Positions 36,857 to 42,849 of a DNA stretch of 64,000 nucleotides are shown here, piece by piece (the first letter of the stretch is position 1; every line of letters begins with the position of its first letter). The DNA is taken from NCBI RefSeq assembly GCF_009883635.2, contig NZ_CP026115.2, forward strand, positions 5,394,001 through 5,458,000. Reading direction: 5' to 3'. The position numbers and the translations under genes were made by a program. The stretch is from Pseudomonas putida. Its GTDB lineage: Bacteria; Pseudomonadota; Gammaproteobacteria; Pseudomonadales; Pseudomonadaceae. The notes under the pieces are model-generated. The model saw nothing but the letters and a program-made list of their open reading frames with translations. It was not told the origin of the DNA and searched no databases.

Positions 36857-38496
36857 CCGAAGAAAAGCTGGCGTATGCCTACGACCTGCTGGGCCGGCTG
36901 ACGCAAGAAATCACACCCGATGGCAGCCTGGGCTACGACTACGACCGGCTCAACAACTTGAGCACGCTGACCATGCCGGATGGCCACCTGCACCAGTTGA
37001 ACCTGGATGGGCAGGTGATCAGCGACATGGAGCGCGACGACCTGCACCGCGAGGTCTACCGCACCCAGGGCAAGCTCACCAGCTGCTTTGGCTACGACGC
37101 CATGGGGCGCAAGGCTTGGCAGTTTGCCTCGACCTTGCCAGCCGACAAGCTGTCGCAGGTGCACAACGTCGGTATCAATTCCTCGTTGCTGGTGGAGCAT
37201 GCCTATAACCCGACTCACCGCCGATACCACTACGACCCGGCCGGCGAGTTGGTGCGCACGCTCGACAAGCTGCGCGGTGAGACCCGGTATGAATACGAAG
37301 CCAATGGCCAGTTGCGCGGACGCGATACCGGCTCACTGATCAGCAGTGAAGAATTTCGCTACGACGCAGCAGCCAACCGCCTGGACTTCAATGCTCGGCA
37401 GTTTGCCCAGGTCAACGACAACCGGATCAAGCGGTGGCGGGATCAGGAATACAGGTATGACCCCTGGGGCAATTTGATCGAGAAGCGCACGGGGTACGAC
37501 AAGCTGCAGAGTTTCAGTTACGACTGCGAAAATCGACTTGTCCATGCCGAGAAGTTGCGCGAGGGCACGCTGGAGAGTTGGGGTAAGTACCGCTATGACA
37601 GCCTCGGGCGGCGGGTGGCCAAGCAGACGGAGGTCAACGGTAAAACTCAGCAGAAACACTTCCTCTGGCAAGGTTTGAGGATGCTGCGCGAGGAGACGCC
37701 GGAGCAGAGCATCTTGTACCTGTATGAGCCGGGTAGCTACGCGCCGCTGGCGCGGGTCGATCAGGTGGAAGGCGACGATCAGAAGCTCTACTACTTCCAT
37801 ACGGACCAGATTGGTACACCGTTGGAGCTGACGGACAGCGACGGCACGATTGTTTGGCAAGCGACGTATCGTTCATGGGGGGCGATTGAGCATCTGGCAG
37901 TCGATCAGGTCCAGCAGAATCTACGGTTCCAAGGCCAGTATCTCGATGACGAAACGGGGCTGCACTACAATACGTTCCGTTTCTACGATCCCGAGGTCGC
38001 ACGCTTTACCACTCAAGATCCTATTGGGCTACTGGGTGGATTCAATCTTTACAAGTATGCTCCTAATTCTACGGGGTGGCTTGATCCTTTAGGATGGTGT
38101 GTCACCACACATGTTACCAAAGGGATGGCAGGCCAACCCTTGAAGGCGACCGCTACGATCACGAGGGGCGATCTGAGGTCAGGTACGGCAACCAATCAAT
38201 CTTCGAGAGCATGGGCTCGGTTGATGGGAAATCCAGACGATGACGCTGGACACATTATTGGTAAAATTTTAGGCGGTTCAGGAGCTAAAAATGGTGTCTT
38301 CCCTCAGCTGAAAGGGATAAATCGTGGGCAATTCAGAGTATTCGAATCTCAAGTTGCAAATGTGGTTCAGAAAAAGGGGGGTGTCGATGTTGAGCTTAAT
38401 TTCATATACGGTAGCGGCGGCACGCGCCCCACATCTATAACTTATGACGTCTATCATCAAGGCGTAAAAATTCTTGAGGGTATTTTTGGGAATTAA
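36853..38496 (+). CDS. Rhs core fragment with C-terminal DNA/RNA non-specific endonuclease tip
   Basis: From GTG 36853 the Rhs frame continues for 547 codons: YD repeats, the core end (FYDPEVARFTTQDPIGLLGG ... STGWLDPLGW, about residue 415), then a variable tip of about 130 residues. The tip has DDAGHIIGKILGGSGAKNGVFPQ, NRGQFRVFE and VDVELNFIYG, matching the NS_2 type of non-specific endonuclease. GC drops from about 38000 on. Whether it is translated alone from GTG 36853 is unknown. The neighbour at 38498 is the cognate immunity candidate. Confidence 0.82.
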   Translation: MTEEKLAYAYDLLGRLTQEITPDGSLGYDYDRLNNLSTLTMPDGHLHQLNLDGQVISDMERDDLHREVYRTQGKLTSCFGYDAMGRKAWQFASTLPADKLSQVHNVGINSSLLVEHAYNPTHRRYHYDPAGELVRTLDKLRGETRYEYEANGQLRGRDTGSLISSEEFRYDAAANRLDFNARQFAQVNDNRIKRWRDQEYRYDPWGNLIEKRTGYDKLQSFSYDCENRLVHAEKLREGTLESWGKYRYDSLGRRVAKQTEVNGKTQQKHFLWQGLRMLREETPEQSILYLYEPGSYAPLARVDQVEGDDQKLYYFHTDQIGTPLELTDSDGTIVWQATYRSWGAIEHLAVDQVQQNLRFQGQYLDDETGLHYNTFRFYDPEVARFTTQDPIGLLGGFNLYKYAPNSTGWLDPLGWCVTTHVTKGMAGQPLKATATITRGDLRSGTATNQSSRAWARLMGNPDDDAGHIIGKILGGSGAKNGVFPQLKGINRGQFRVFESQVANVVQKKGGVDVELNFIYGSGGTRPTSITYDVYHQGVKILEGIFGN

Positions 38497-38922: not shown

Positions 38923-39360
38923 CTGACTCACACCGACGGCAGAGACCAGGCACCTGCAATGCACGTTACGCAGCTTGCCGAGCCGCGTAACGTGCGTTGC
39001 CAAGGGCAAGTGGATCCGCTACGAATACGACCGGCTCAGCAACCTGACCACGCTGACCCTGCCGGATGGCCGCAAGGTCAACCACCTGTGCTACGGCAGC
39101 GGCCACCTGCACCAGTTGAACCTGGATGGGCAGGTGATCAGCGACATGGAGCGCGATGACCTGCACCGCGAGGTCTACCGCCCCCAGGGCAAGCTCACCA
39201 GTTGCTTTGGCTATGACGCCATGGGGCGCAAGGCCTGGCAGTTTGCCTCGACCTTGCCAGCCGATCAGTTTTCACAGGTGCACAACAATGGCATCAATAC
39301 CTCGCTGCTGGTGGAACACGCCTACAACCCGATTCACCGCCGTTATCAGTACGACCCTTC
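38923..39360 (+). pseudogene. Orphan Rhs scrap, mosaic duplicate of the upstream Rhs core
   Basis: The sequence parallels 36411-36520 (CACACCGACGGC ... AGTGGATCCGCTA) and then jumps to material parallel to 36940-37230, which is nearly identical over about 240 bases (HLHQLNLDGQVISDMERDDL, TSCFGYDAMGRKAWQFAST, SLLVEHAYNP). It has no start, no toxin tip and ends YQYDP before unrelated sequence. It is homology left by displaced tips, and could serve in recombination that swaps toxin cassettes. Confidence 0.8.
38956..39000. repeat. Perfect quasi-palindrome inside the Rhs scrap
   Basis: GCAATGCACGTTACGC (38956-38971) pairs with GCGTAACGTGCGTTGC (38985-39000), one mismatch in 16, around a 13-base loop. 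The matching place in the upstream Rhs copy (near 36459-36510) is not palindromic. The hairpin therefore arose within the scrap. Confidence 0.75.
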
Positions 39361-39364
39361 GTGG

Positions 39365-39381
39365 CTGTATCTCACTGTATC
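39365..39381. promoter_or_regulatory. Direct repeat CTGTATC upstream of the hvfA operon
   Basis: CTGTATC occurs at 39365-39371 and 39375-39381, ten bases apart, exactly where the Rhs scrap ends. One helical-turn spacing is typical of activator binding half-sites. It is 167 bases before the hvfA start. No regulator gene is adjacent, so this is only a candidate site. Confidence 0.3.
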
Positions 39382-39547
39382 ATTGCGCCTGCCACAACAC
39401 TCACATACAAAACCTTCGCCCTCCTGATACGCCCGGGATACATCCCTGGGGCCAAATGGGCCAGCCCGAACGAACAAGCCCCACGGCCTGCGTTCCCTGG
39501 CTCTTTCGCCCTTGAGGCATGACCGTACGACTATCAGGAGAAACACC

Positions 39548-40075
39548 ATGTCCCGTATCCAGTTCCCCAACAAGACTCGTCTCGGCCTGCTGAGCATCGC
39601 CCTGGTAGGCGGTATCAACCTGGCTTCCTCGGCGTTTGCCGTCGAAGCGTTGCCACAAGGCTACCAACTGGCCGCCGCAGAAAAGGCCGGCGAGGGCAAG
39701 TGTGGCGAAGGCAAGTGCGGTGCCAGCGGCGCCAAGGCCAAGGCCACCCAGGCCGAGGGCAAGTGCGGCGAGGGCAAGTGTGGCGCCAGCGGTGCCAAGG
39801 GCAAGGTCACCCAGGCCGAAGGCAAATGCGGTGAAGGCAAGTGTGGTGACGCCTCGTTCGCCCGCACCGACGCCGACCATGACGGCCGCGTTTCCCGTGC
39901 CGAGCTGTTGGCAGTCGCCCCGAAGGCCGGTGCCGAGTTCGATGCGATCGACGCCAACCACGACGGTTACCTTTCCGAGGCCGAGGTATACCAGTTCCGC
40001 AAGCACCAGTTCGACGCCAATGGCAATCCATTCCCGACCGACCTGTACAGCAAACTGAGCCAGGCAAAGAACTGA
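39548..40075 (+). CDS. hvfA: HvfA-type RiPP metallophore precursor with EGKCG repeats and two EF-hands
   Basis: A 175-residue secreted precursor. Signal peptide about 1-29 ([20 protein letters not shown]). Residues 49-100 carry six EGKCG motifs as three [10 protein letters not shown] pairs in 21-residue repeats. HvfA-family EGKCG cysteines are converted to copper-binding heterocycles by the partner MNIO enzyme. Unlike short HvfA/bufferin precursors, a C-terminal domain adds two canonical EF-hand loops ([12 protein letters not shown], 108-119; [12 protein letters not shown], 135-146). AGGAGAAACACC precedes ATG 39548. Followed by hvfB and hvfC. Confidence 0.88.
39692..39850 (+). repeat. 63-base coding tandem repeat in hvfA
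   Basis: Two full 63-base units (39692-39754, 39755-39817) and a half unit (39818-39850) encode [10 protein letters not shown] plus the spacer ASGAKxKxTQA. Third-base differences between units show the peptide, not the DNA, is conserved, so this is selected protein repetition. Confidence 0.9.
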
Positions 40076-40139
40076 CCCTCGGCGGCATCCTCCCCAGGCC
40101 GTGGGCCGGGGAGGGCGCTGCACCACAAGGAACATGCCG

Positions 40140-40985
40140 ATGAACACTTCTTCTACCCTGCAGGGCGCGGGCCTGGGGTTGCGCCGTGGGCTGCTGCCCG
40201 AACTGCTGGCCATGGACGCCGGCGCCGTGGACTTTCTCGAATGCGCCCCGGACAACTGGATCGGCGTTGGCGGTGCCTTCGGCGAAGGCCTGGCGCAACT
40301 GGCCGAGCGCTACCCGCTGGCCTGCCACGGCCTGTCATTGTCGCTGGGCGGCCCGGCTCCGTTGGACCATGGCTTTCTGCGCCAGATCCGCGCCTTTCTC
40401 GACCGTCATCAGGTACCGCTGTTCAGCGAGCACCTGAGCTACTGTGCCGATGACGGCCATCTGTACGACCTCATTCCGATGCCGTTCACCGATGAAGCCG
40501 TGCGCCATACTGCGGCGCGTATTGCTGAGGTCCAGGATGCCCTCGGCCGGCGCATTGCCGTGGAGAACATCTCCTACTACGCCGCGCCGTATCAGGCGAT
40601 GAGCGAGATCGAGTTTCTCAAGGCGGTGTTGAGTGAAGCCGATTGCGACCTGCTGCTGGACATCAACAACATCGTGGTCAATGCCTGCAACCATCGCTAC
40701 GACGCTGCCGGGTTTCTCGCCCAGGTGCCGGCCGAGCGGGTGGTCTGCCTGCATGTGGCCGGGCACTACGATGAAGCGCCGGACTTGAAGATCGATACCC
40801 ATGGCGCCAGCGTCAGGCCTGATGTCTGGGGCCTGCTGGCCAGTGCCTACCATTACCTGGGGCCGGTGCCGACCCTGCTCGAGCGCGACTTCAACCTGCC
40901 ACCACTGGCCGAACTGCTGGCCGAGGTGGACCATATTCGCAGCCTGCAACCCGTGGCGCAGGCCCTGGCGGTGCGCCATGGCTGA
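40140..40985 (+). CDS. hvfB: HvfB: MNIO (DUF692) multinuclear non-heme iron oxidase
   Basis: A 281-residue TIM-barrel enzyme of the DUF692/MbnB-like family. Visible family ligands and motifs: [62 protein letters not shown] and [10 protein letters not shown]; conserved His, Asp and Glu bind two or three irons. The enzyme is expected to oxidise the cysteines of HvfA. I chose ATG 40140 because AAGGA lies 8 bases before it; an ATG at 40134 is too close. Overlaps hvfC by 8 bases. Confidence 0.9.
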
Positions 40986-41715
40986 CTCGCTGCGCGATCA
41001 GCAACTGCGCATGGCCGGGCATATCCGCGACCCGCAGGCCAATCCGCCGCCGCCCGGTATCGAAGCGCGGCGTCTGGCGGTGTATCGGCAACTGTTCTTC
41101 GGCAACCTGCAATCATTGCTGGCCGGCAGCTTCCCAGTGCTGCATGCCAGCCTCGCCACCGAACACTGGCAGGGGTTGTGTGAAGACTTCTATGCCCACC
41201 ATCGCTGCCACACGCCGCTGTTCACCGAAGTGGGCGGCGAGTGGGTCGAGTACCTGCAAGGGCGCACCGACCAACCCGAGTGGGTCGCCGAACTGGCCCA
41301 TTACGAGTGGATCGAAACGGCCTTGCTGCTGAGCGATGTCGCCGAACCTGAGCATGACCCTGAGGGTGATCTGCTCGAAGGCGTGCCTGTGCTGTCCAGC
41401 CTCGCCATGCCGCTGGCCTATGCCTGGCCGGTCAGCCACATTGGGCCGGAGCATCTACCGGTTGAGGCGCCAGACGTACCGACGCTGCTGCTGGCGCACC
41501 GAGGCGCGGGCCACAAGGTGAGCTTCTCGCGCCTGGCACCGCTGGCCCATGCACTGTTGGAGTCGTTGCAAGGCCAGCCATTGAGCGGGCGTGAACACCT
41601 GGCGGCGCTGGCCGCGGCGGCCGGCGTCGAACCCGCCGCCATCGAGGCCCCGGGCCTTGCGCTGCTGCTCAGCCTCAAGGCCCGGGGCGTGGTGCTCGGC
41701 ACGCGCTGCGACTAG
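40978..41715 (+). CDS. hvfC: HvfC: DUF2063 partner protein of the MNIO enzyme
   Basis: A 245-residue protein with the DUF2063 N-terminal domain ([14 protein letters not shown], then [25 protein letters not shown]). In MNIO systems (MbnC-type) it binds the precursor leader and activates the oxidase, so HvfB and HvfC act as one complex on HvfA in the cytoplasm. The start overlaps the hvfB stop by 8 bases, consistent with coupling. No DoxX-like fourth gene follows. Confidence 0.88.
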
Positions 41716-42299: not shown

Positions 42300-42707
42300 T
42301 TAGCGGCGATAGTAGCGGTGGTCGCGATCATAACGGTGGTCGCGATCGTAGTGGTGGGCGCGCTCGTTGCGGCGCTCCCATTCGTGGCGGCGTTCGGCTT
42401 CACGGCGTGCCTGTTCCCGGCGCCATTGCGCGCGACGCCATTCTTCGCGGCGGCGGTCTTCGCTGTGGTAGTGCCAGCGGCCGTCGCGCCAGTAGCGGTC
42501 GTCATGGGCGAGCAGCGGCCCTTGCTGGCCATCGGCGATGCTGGCCAGGTCTGGCCAGGGGCTTTGGGCTGGCTTGACTGGCGTGTGGAGGGCTGTGTCA
42601 GTGGCCTGGACCGGGTTCGGAGTGTGCATTTGCATCGCCGACGCCGAGCCTGCGGCCGCGAAAGCGAACAGGCTGGCGAACAGGAGCTTCGAAAAGTGGA
42701 GTTTCAT
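42300..42707 (-). CDS. Secreted His/Arg-rich protein
   Basis: A 135-residue protein with a signal peptide (KLLFASLFAFAAAGSASAMQ) and a C-terminal half made of Arg, Glu, His and Trp (RREEWRRAQWRREQARREAE) ending in DRDHRYDRDHRYYRR. It resembles small periplasmic proteins with basic tails, which may bind metals, polyphosphate or nucleic acids; I cannot say which. ATG 42707 matches the start of the signal peptide. Confidence 0.7.
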   Translation of the reverse strand: MKLHFSKLLFASLFAFAAAGSASAMQMHTPNPVQATDTALHTPVKPAQSPWPDLASIADGQQGPLLAHDDRYWRDGRWHYHSEDRRREEWRRAQWRREQARREAERRHEWERRNERAHHYDRDHRYDRDHRYYRR

Positions 42708-42849
42708 GATTACAGGCAATCCCCTGGTTATCATTGAACATACGGATGCGTTGCCTCTCGAAGCTGCGCATCCGCTCGCGTGAGCCTGCTCAGATAGACC
42801 AGTAATCGCGCAAAAGTTCAGCCTCCTCAGTGCTTTACTGCCTTCAGGG

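Follow-up and report, generated by a model that had tools for sequence, protein, structure and literature searches.

The precursor, hvfB and hvfC genes in the window (the whole analysed stretch of 64,000 nucleotides from the Pseudomonas putida contig NZ_CP026115.2) are predicted, very likely correctly, to make an exported copper-binding protein with enzyme-rebuilt cysteines and a terminal two-site calcium-binding domain. The full explanation that we regard as best, with a probability of roughly 0.6, is that the product is a periplasmic thiooxazole copper buffer with a calcium-folded cap. The features of the locus are as follows:

39366..39381, forward strand: promoter box TGTATC-N4-TGTATC, 182 nt upstream of the precursor ATG
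39426..39442, forward strand: second box, GATAC-N6-GATACA (TGTATC on the other strand)
39548..40075, forward strand: hvfA-type precursor gene, 175 aa (open reading frame, family profiles, motif reading, alignment, AlphaFold2)
39692..39847, forward strand: EGKCG core, residues 49-100, with all six cysteines in three motif pairs
39869..39904, forward strand: EF-hand loop 1, residues 108-119 (D108-E119), 12 residues
39950..39985, forward strand: EF-hand loop 2, residues 135-146 (D135-E146), 12 residues
40140..40985, forward strand: hvfB, MNIO, 281 aa (PF05114 1.7e-100; HvfB NF003818 417.7 bits, cut-off 360)
40978..41715, forward strand: hvfC, DUF2063/RRE partner (PME1), 245 aa (HvfC NF050145 267.6 bits, cut-off 142; DUF2063)

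The precursor gene is immediately preceded by a ribosome-binding-like AGGAG 5' of the ATG at 39548, and the N-terminus of its product, judged by eye, is hydrophobic and signal-like and is followed by AFA. The initial annotation had described six EGKCG motifs and two textbook EF-hand loops in this protein, and both descriptions are borne out. The motifs start at residues 49, 54, 70, 75, 91 and 96, with one pair per 21 residues, and hold every one of the six cysteines. The EF-hand pair, classed as C-terminal to the core, is recovered above cut-off by EF-hand_5 (PF13202; 1.5e-9, two stretches) and likewise by EF-hand_1, EF-hand_6 and EF-hand_7 in the profile search, and is followed by helices that form the C-terminus. 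The KCGExKCG_twice model (NF050137) matched the precursor at 4e-16 with 58.4 bits against a cut-off of 19.5, and the HvfA equivalog NF050188 reached 62.7 bits, below its cut-off of 95; going by this score the precursor is a chimaeric relative, with HvfA proper excluded. As computed from the sequence, its motif and family matches far exceed chance. In the AlphaFold2 model, which is weak as a whole (mean pLDDT 56.8), residues 5-98 have pLDDT <50, and residues 101 to 170 have a block mean pLDDT of 69-91 and contain the EF-hand helices, suggesting that the EGKCG core is probably disordered and the EF-hand part probably folded. A Foldseek search with the whole model gave zero matches at E <= 0.001 (best 0.041); the 50 matches displayed, all weak, are by title calmodulin-like or other EF-hand entries. 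The top profile matches to solved structures were 8fns (an EF-hand domain-containing protein) and 6mi5 (lanmodulin). Lanmodulin resembles the precursor in being a small EF-hand protein; its loops have typical features at positions 9 and 2, and the window loops differ from them, with a Ser at position 9 and a residue other than Pro at position 2. A lanthanide-type EF-hand was accordingly dropped as a candidate, since the loop chemistry differs and LanM (NCBIfam) gave 18 bits, far under its cut-off of 135, despite the weak profile similarity. The XopAW and transaldolase models, which were far under cut-off and matched the EF-hand region only, were set aside.

That MNIO and partner genes follow the precursor in the expected order and with overlap had also been stated earlier, and it stands: the order is precursor, hvfB, hvfC, and the latter two overlap by 8 nt. 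The MNIO gives a close alignment to 3bww, a DUF692 protein of solved structure (7.2e-78), and scores 266.4 bits with MNIO_BufB, under the cut-off of 310, while DUF2282, the domain of the bufferin Buf1, was unmatched in the profile search at E <= 1. The hvfC product combines DUF2063 with an NGO1945_C domain. A tblastn search with the DoxX of the same genome (E 1e-3) recovered no relative in the 64-kb window; the doxX gene is frequent but inconstant in HvfABC/oxazolin clusters and so is optional for membership. No tRNA was found in the window. Upstream, the stretch 39101-39357 repeats 36982-37238 with 91% identity and is Rhs-like by eye; its end lies 8 nt short of the precursor's promoter box, which places the cluster directly downstream of Rhs-like debris.

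In the accessible text of PMC12452194 some 2,000 proteins make up a Buf_EGKCG/oxazolin family, which is divided into two types. The second type combines a short EGKCG core with two C-terminal EF-hand_5 domains (e.g. WP_187711723.1), and for it the text suggests a role in Ca2+ homeostasis or signalling; stand-alone precursor genes are mentioned there too. In a literature search this was the only work found to combine EF-hand, MNIO and RiPP. The expectation that an EF-hand bufferin would be new has consequently to be given up, as the C-terminal fusion is already published there and is common in Pseudomonas. Membership of the window precursor in the Buf_EGKCG|EF-hand_5 type, and of its cluster in the captophorin/oxazolin (HvfABC) kind, is well supported: the precursor shares with that type the short core, which lacks 17-residue repeats and is predicted to be unstructured, the hydrophobic N-terminus and the two C-terminal EF-hands, and the family's usual neighbours, MNIO and DUF2063 genes, are present in the window as well. 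No difference of weight was found from this type, the window core having its pairs every 21 residues. The HvfABC/oxazolin system of Haemophilus influenzae is alike in EGKCG motifs, MNIO HvfB, partner HvfC and gene order, and differs from the window locus in the EF-hand part of the window precursor and in the sub-cut-off NF050188 score. According to the portions available, EGKCG units are also shared by fontiphorin, gonophorin and the Microbulbifer peptide (PMC12538549), and fontiphorin and gonophorin have 5-thiooxazole and an MNIO with PME1 (PMC12668002); the latter work further indicates that HvfBC-like enzymes introduce 5-thiooxazoles into EGKCG cores and that cores so modified in general bind copper. 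The term EF-hand is absent from the main text of both PMC12668002 and PMC12538549.

The EF-hand domain is usual in the genus and rare in the class draw. EGKCG model matches were present in 125 of 298 genus genomes, in a match list that reaches about E 1.5e-4 and leaves out weaker places, and 100 of these 125 genomes yielded 107 loci with 108 precursors (L007, L009-L114), the window's own gene not being counted. With EF-hand classes assigned in the surveys by sequence pattern, not HMM, 65 of these precursors have C-terminal EF-hands, 7 have them inside the core and 36 have none, giving 72/108 with the domain. In the class draw at least 98 of 369 genomes had an EGKCG match; the 70 loci taken included 69 with a precursor-like frame (L282 had none), and EF-hands were found in 3 of their 75 frames, a few of which are pieces of one gene. 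The statement that HvfA-type precursors mostly lack such a domain therefore agrees with the class draw and fails in the genus; whether most homologues carry it depends on where one samples. A further named set, the best 80 of 353 found, is biased to relatives of the query, overlaps the survey genomes and was left out of the frequencies; among the matches listed in it the fusion occurs in Stenotrophomonas, Lysobacter, Luteimonas, Pseudoxanthomonas, Vulcaniibacterium, Steroidobacter and Rheinheimera, with single fusion records labelled Pantoea and Paucimonas. Among individual genus loci, L095 contains a nearly identical pair of EF-hand chimaera genes, which lie some 1.6 kb from each other and flank a gene that by eye is ParA-like; L096 appears to be a frameshifted chimaera with a damaged EF-hand part, counted as none in the genus survey; and L109 is a chimaera with a damaged EF-hand part in which one loop is a residue short.

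Alignment of 22 chimaeras shows both EF-hand loops to be invariant at positions 1, 5 and 12, loop 1 also at position 9 and loop 2 also at position 6; the EGKCG pair and D beside the EF-hand part are nearly invariant. These alignments were made independently of the loop pattern; the pattern search itself found two loops in 130 of 131 distinct chimaeras, a count that is partly circular as the pattern fixes position 1 as D and limits the residues allowed elsewhere. Nine relatives were compared over the 76 codons of the EF-hand part, with dN/dS values from 0 to 0.10; L056 and L145 among them gave equal values and are probably one genome. The nearest relative, L065, has zero amino-acid changes in this part, with 29% of synonymous sites changed. 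By these measures purifying selection on the EF-hand part is strong, and its acidic ligands are retained.

These observations, together with the published systems, allow a mechanism to be proposed. In the cytoplasm HvfB, an iron enzyme, and HvfC would, by analogy, convert the six EGKCG cysteines to 5-thiooxazoles. The Sec signal peptide might at the same time serve HvfB and HvfC as a leader, by analogy with PMC13419390, which in its available part reports that HvfBC prefers a precursor with a signal peptide and that the Sec signal peptide acts like a leader. The modified precursor would then be exported by Sec, and in the calcium-rich periplasm the EF-hand pair would most likely bind Ca2+ and fold. 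A disordered copper-chelating arm would in this way be carried on a small, stable, protein-sized EF-hand cap, and the mature product would buffer excess copper. An EF-less hvfABC paralogue in the same genome (L007, G000:C1:4815000-4822000; doxX on the opposite strand by eye), which has its own hvfBC, points to the EGKCG core as the metallophore and to the EF-hand as an add-on. For the calcium-binding domain we favour the putative role of a structural cap or anchor that would keep the chelator protein-sized and stable. The main rival, which may be entertained as a tentative possibility, is that the EF-hand pair is a calcium sensor, in which a Ca2+-induced shape change gates copper binding, release or partner contact, a mode of action put forward for EfhP of P. 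aeruginosa. In the accessible text of PMC9132961 this EF-hand protein is probably periplasmic, binds Ca2+ and changes shape; by description it is like the window precursor in having a signal peptide and EF-hands, and its paper mentions copper 0 times. The retention of the loop ligands under strong selection and the role in Ca2+ homeostasis or signalling suggested for the EF-hand type are consistent with a sensor. However, a two-loop pair could equally be a structural or buffering unit, and the Ca2+ state and the copper arm are unconnected in the present analysis, in which hvfBC and doxX were the conserved partner genes considered.

Points that weigh against the copper buffer with a calcium-folded cap are the weak model and Foldseek result, the NF050188 score under its cut-off, the EF-less precursors that nest among chimaeras in the tree described below, and the placing of MNIO genes across the genus. 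The genus survey's 65 C-terminal chimaeras divide into 34 whose MNIO gene follows directly, 5 in which it lies upstream with HvfC and 26 with no MNIO nearby; maturation of the 31/65 with no MNIO directly downstream must use genes elsewhere. The same 31 precursors are what speaks for an alternative with unmodified cysteines, the product being either a metallothionein-like thiol protein or simply a calcium-binding one. An MNIO is present in every one of the 29 genomes in which these 31 precursors or the frameshifted L096 occur (29/29, against 250/298 in the genus background; raw counts, kin included). In 20 of the 29 an HvfB-type MNIO with HvfC stands without a nearby EGKCG precursor, i.e. with none within 1.5 kb upstream nor downstream to the end of the stretch or contig; at one of these, L126, an opposite-strand frame met the loose motif but is devoid of EGKCG. 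In 5 of the 29 hvfBC precede the chimaera, in one (G025) they lie beside an EF-less paralogue, and in three (G011, G114, G204) their arrangement was not assigned. The unlinked loci are:

L117-L126, L128-L132, L134-L138: unlinked hvfBC (orphan chimaeras e.g. L019, L029, L076)

The orphan precursor state as such is already known from PMC12452194, as far as its text is accessible, and split systems of chimaera and hvfBC are undescribed in that text.

The promoter boxes of these loci provide a further link. The exact TGTATC-N4-TGTATC box has 1 copy in the 6.19-Mb genome as against 0 for the reversed control; a relaxed pattern gave 6 sites as against 4, which is uninformative. With 2 mismatches allowed the window had 1 match where 1.15 are expected, so the argument rests on the exact box and not on the mismatch count. 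GATACA occurs within 350 nt upstream of 25/25 orphan chimaeras examined (25 of 26, one L095 copy being left out) and within 400 nt upstream of 20/20 stand-alone hvfBC, as compared with 59/1477 random 350-nt windows of the same loci; it is also upstream of 13/14 EF-less orphans and 4/22 EF-less precursors with an MNIO. A TGTAYC pair was found at 17/25 orphan chimaeras and 8/20 stand-alone hvfBC versus 3/1477 random windows, at 24/34 chimaeras with an MNIO downstream, 5/5 with it upstream and 5/7 internal ones, at 2/14 orphan EF-less precursors and 1/22 EF-less ones with an MNIO, and at 8/21, 11/31 and 2/3 in the named set (L145-L198). These motif counts, in which many genomes are close kin, support joint control of unlinked loci. 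Both TGTATC and GATACA are missing from the 350 nt upstream of the genome's EF-less paralogue, and this, along with the partly kept TGTAYC pair, argues against a single regulon. A literature search for TGTATC with Pseudomonas, made with regard to the regulator, was unspecific, and a shared box of split loci is absent from the accessible text of PMC12452194. The presence of an MNIO throughout the split sample, the boxes common to the split loci and the hvfBC genes directly downstream in the window render unmodified cysteines improbable.

The history of the fusion was traced in an MNIO tree, built by a quick method from the 115 rows kept of 169 after near-copy removal plus an outgroup, in which 48 of 113 inner branches are open and the EF-less rows include long branches. 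One clade of 58 rows (support 99) holds 50/52 EF-hand rows and comprises 37 C-terminal, 13 internal and 8 without the domain. L247 and L274, internal chimaeras of a different family within the class, fall with L277 inside an EF-less group (support 98), so that two or more origins are the simplest account of the fusion; at least six switches between EF-hand and none are required by the starred branches, with gain and loss indistinguishable by the method. The EF-less L007 MNIO nests inside a group of C-terminal chimaeras (support 97), which suggests loss of the EF-hand domain in its lineage. Similarly placed within the chimaera clade are EF-less precursors at L080 and L083, which like that at L007 have their own hvfBC, and in these lineages the domain seems dispensable. 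This bears on the idea, raised at the outset, that the EF-hand is a recognition scaffold for HvfB and HvfC (a follower or leader-like element): the near-invariant EGKCG pair and D beside it and the concentration of EF-hand rows in one MNIO clade would suit such a role, but the nested EF-less precursors with hvfBC, the leader-like signal peptide reported in the available part of PMC13419390 and the mid-core position of the EF pair in other members make it quite implausible. Least credible is a neutral passenger, to which the absence of the domain from those nested precursors and its damage in a few (L109, L096) might point, given the low dN/dS and a domain that is in 72/108 genus precursors and was most simply gained more than once.

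In 22 precursors (7 from the genus survey, 13 from the named set and 2 from the class survey) the EF-hand pair is sandwiched between EGKCG blocks:

L084-L089, L097, L199, L202-L204, L207-L212, L218, L222, L223, L247, L274: sandwiched-layout loci (L084/L204 and L097/L218 are apparently the same contig, found by more than one search)

The accessible text of PMC12452194 has the C-terminal EF-hand fusion only, with no insertion between EGKCG blocks. Given the sandwiched layout, enzymes of one family would have to tolerate a folded domain either within the core or behind it, and from the box common to the split loci a single regulator of the unlinked parts is predicted. A wider reading, which we consider rather unlikely as a whole, would join these strands: Ca2+ coupling might be recurrent in thiooxazole copper buffers, in two layouts in which Ca2+ gates or shapes the chelator, with unlinked hvfBC maturing the chimaera in trans under one regulator of the shared box. 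If a copper-binding RiPP is indeed under calcium control, Pseudomonas would have a link between calcium and its copper homeostasis.

Some minor observations concern the wider set of loci. A third MNIO locus in the same genome (L008, G000:C1:64500-72000) contains, by eye, a Buf1-like precursor, a BufB-type MNIO, a partner and DoxX-like, sigma-like and anti-sigma-like genes. Near the chimaera, both in the window (42300-42734) and in L072 (3420-3921), lies a gene for a small protein that looks secreted and has a tail rich in R, H and W; it may be a common neighbour or a chance one. Finally, 13 very short precursors of 65-69 aa with two EGKCG motifs (L090, L091, L094, L099, L101-L106, L111-L113) have no nearby MNIO, and a DoxX relative is present in the fetched stretch of all 13.
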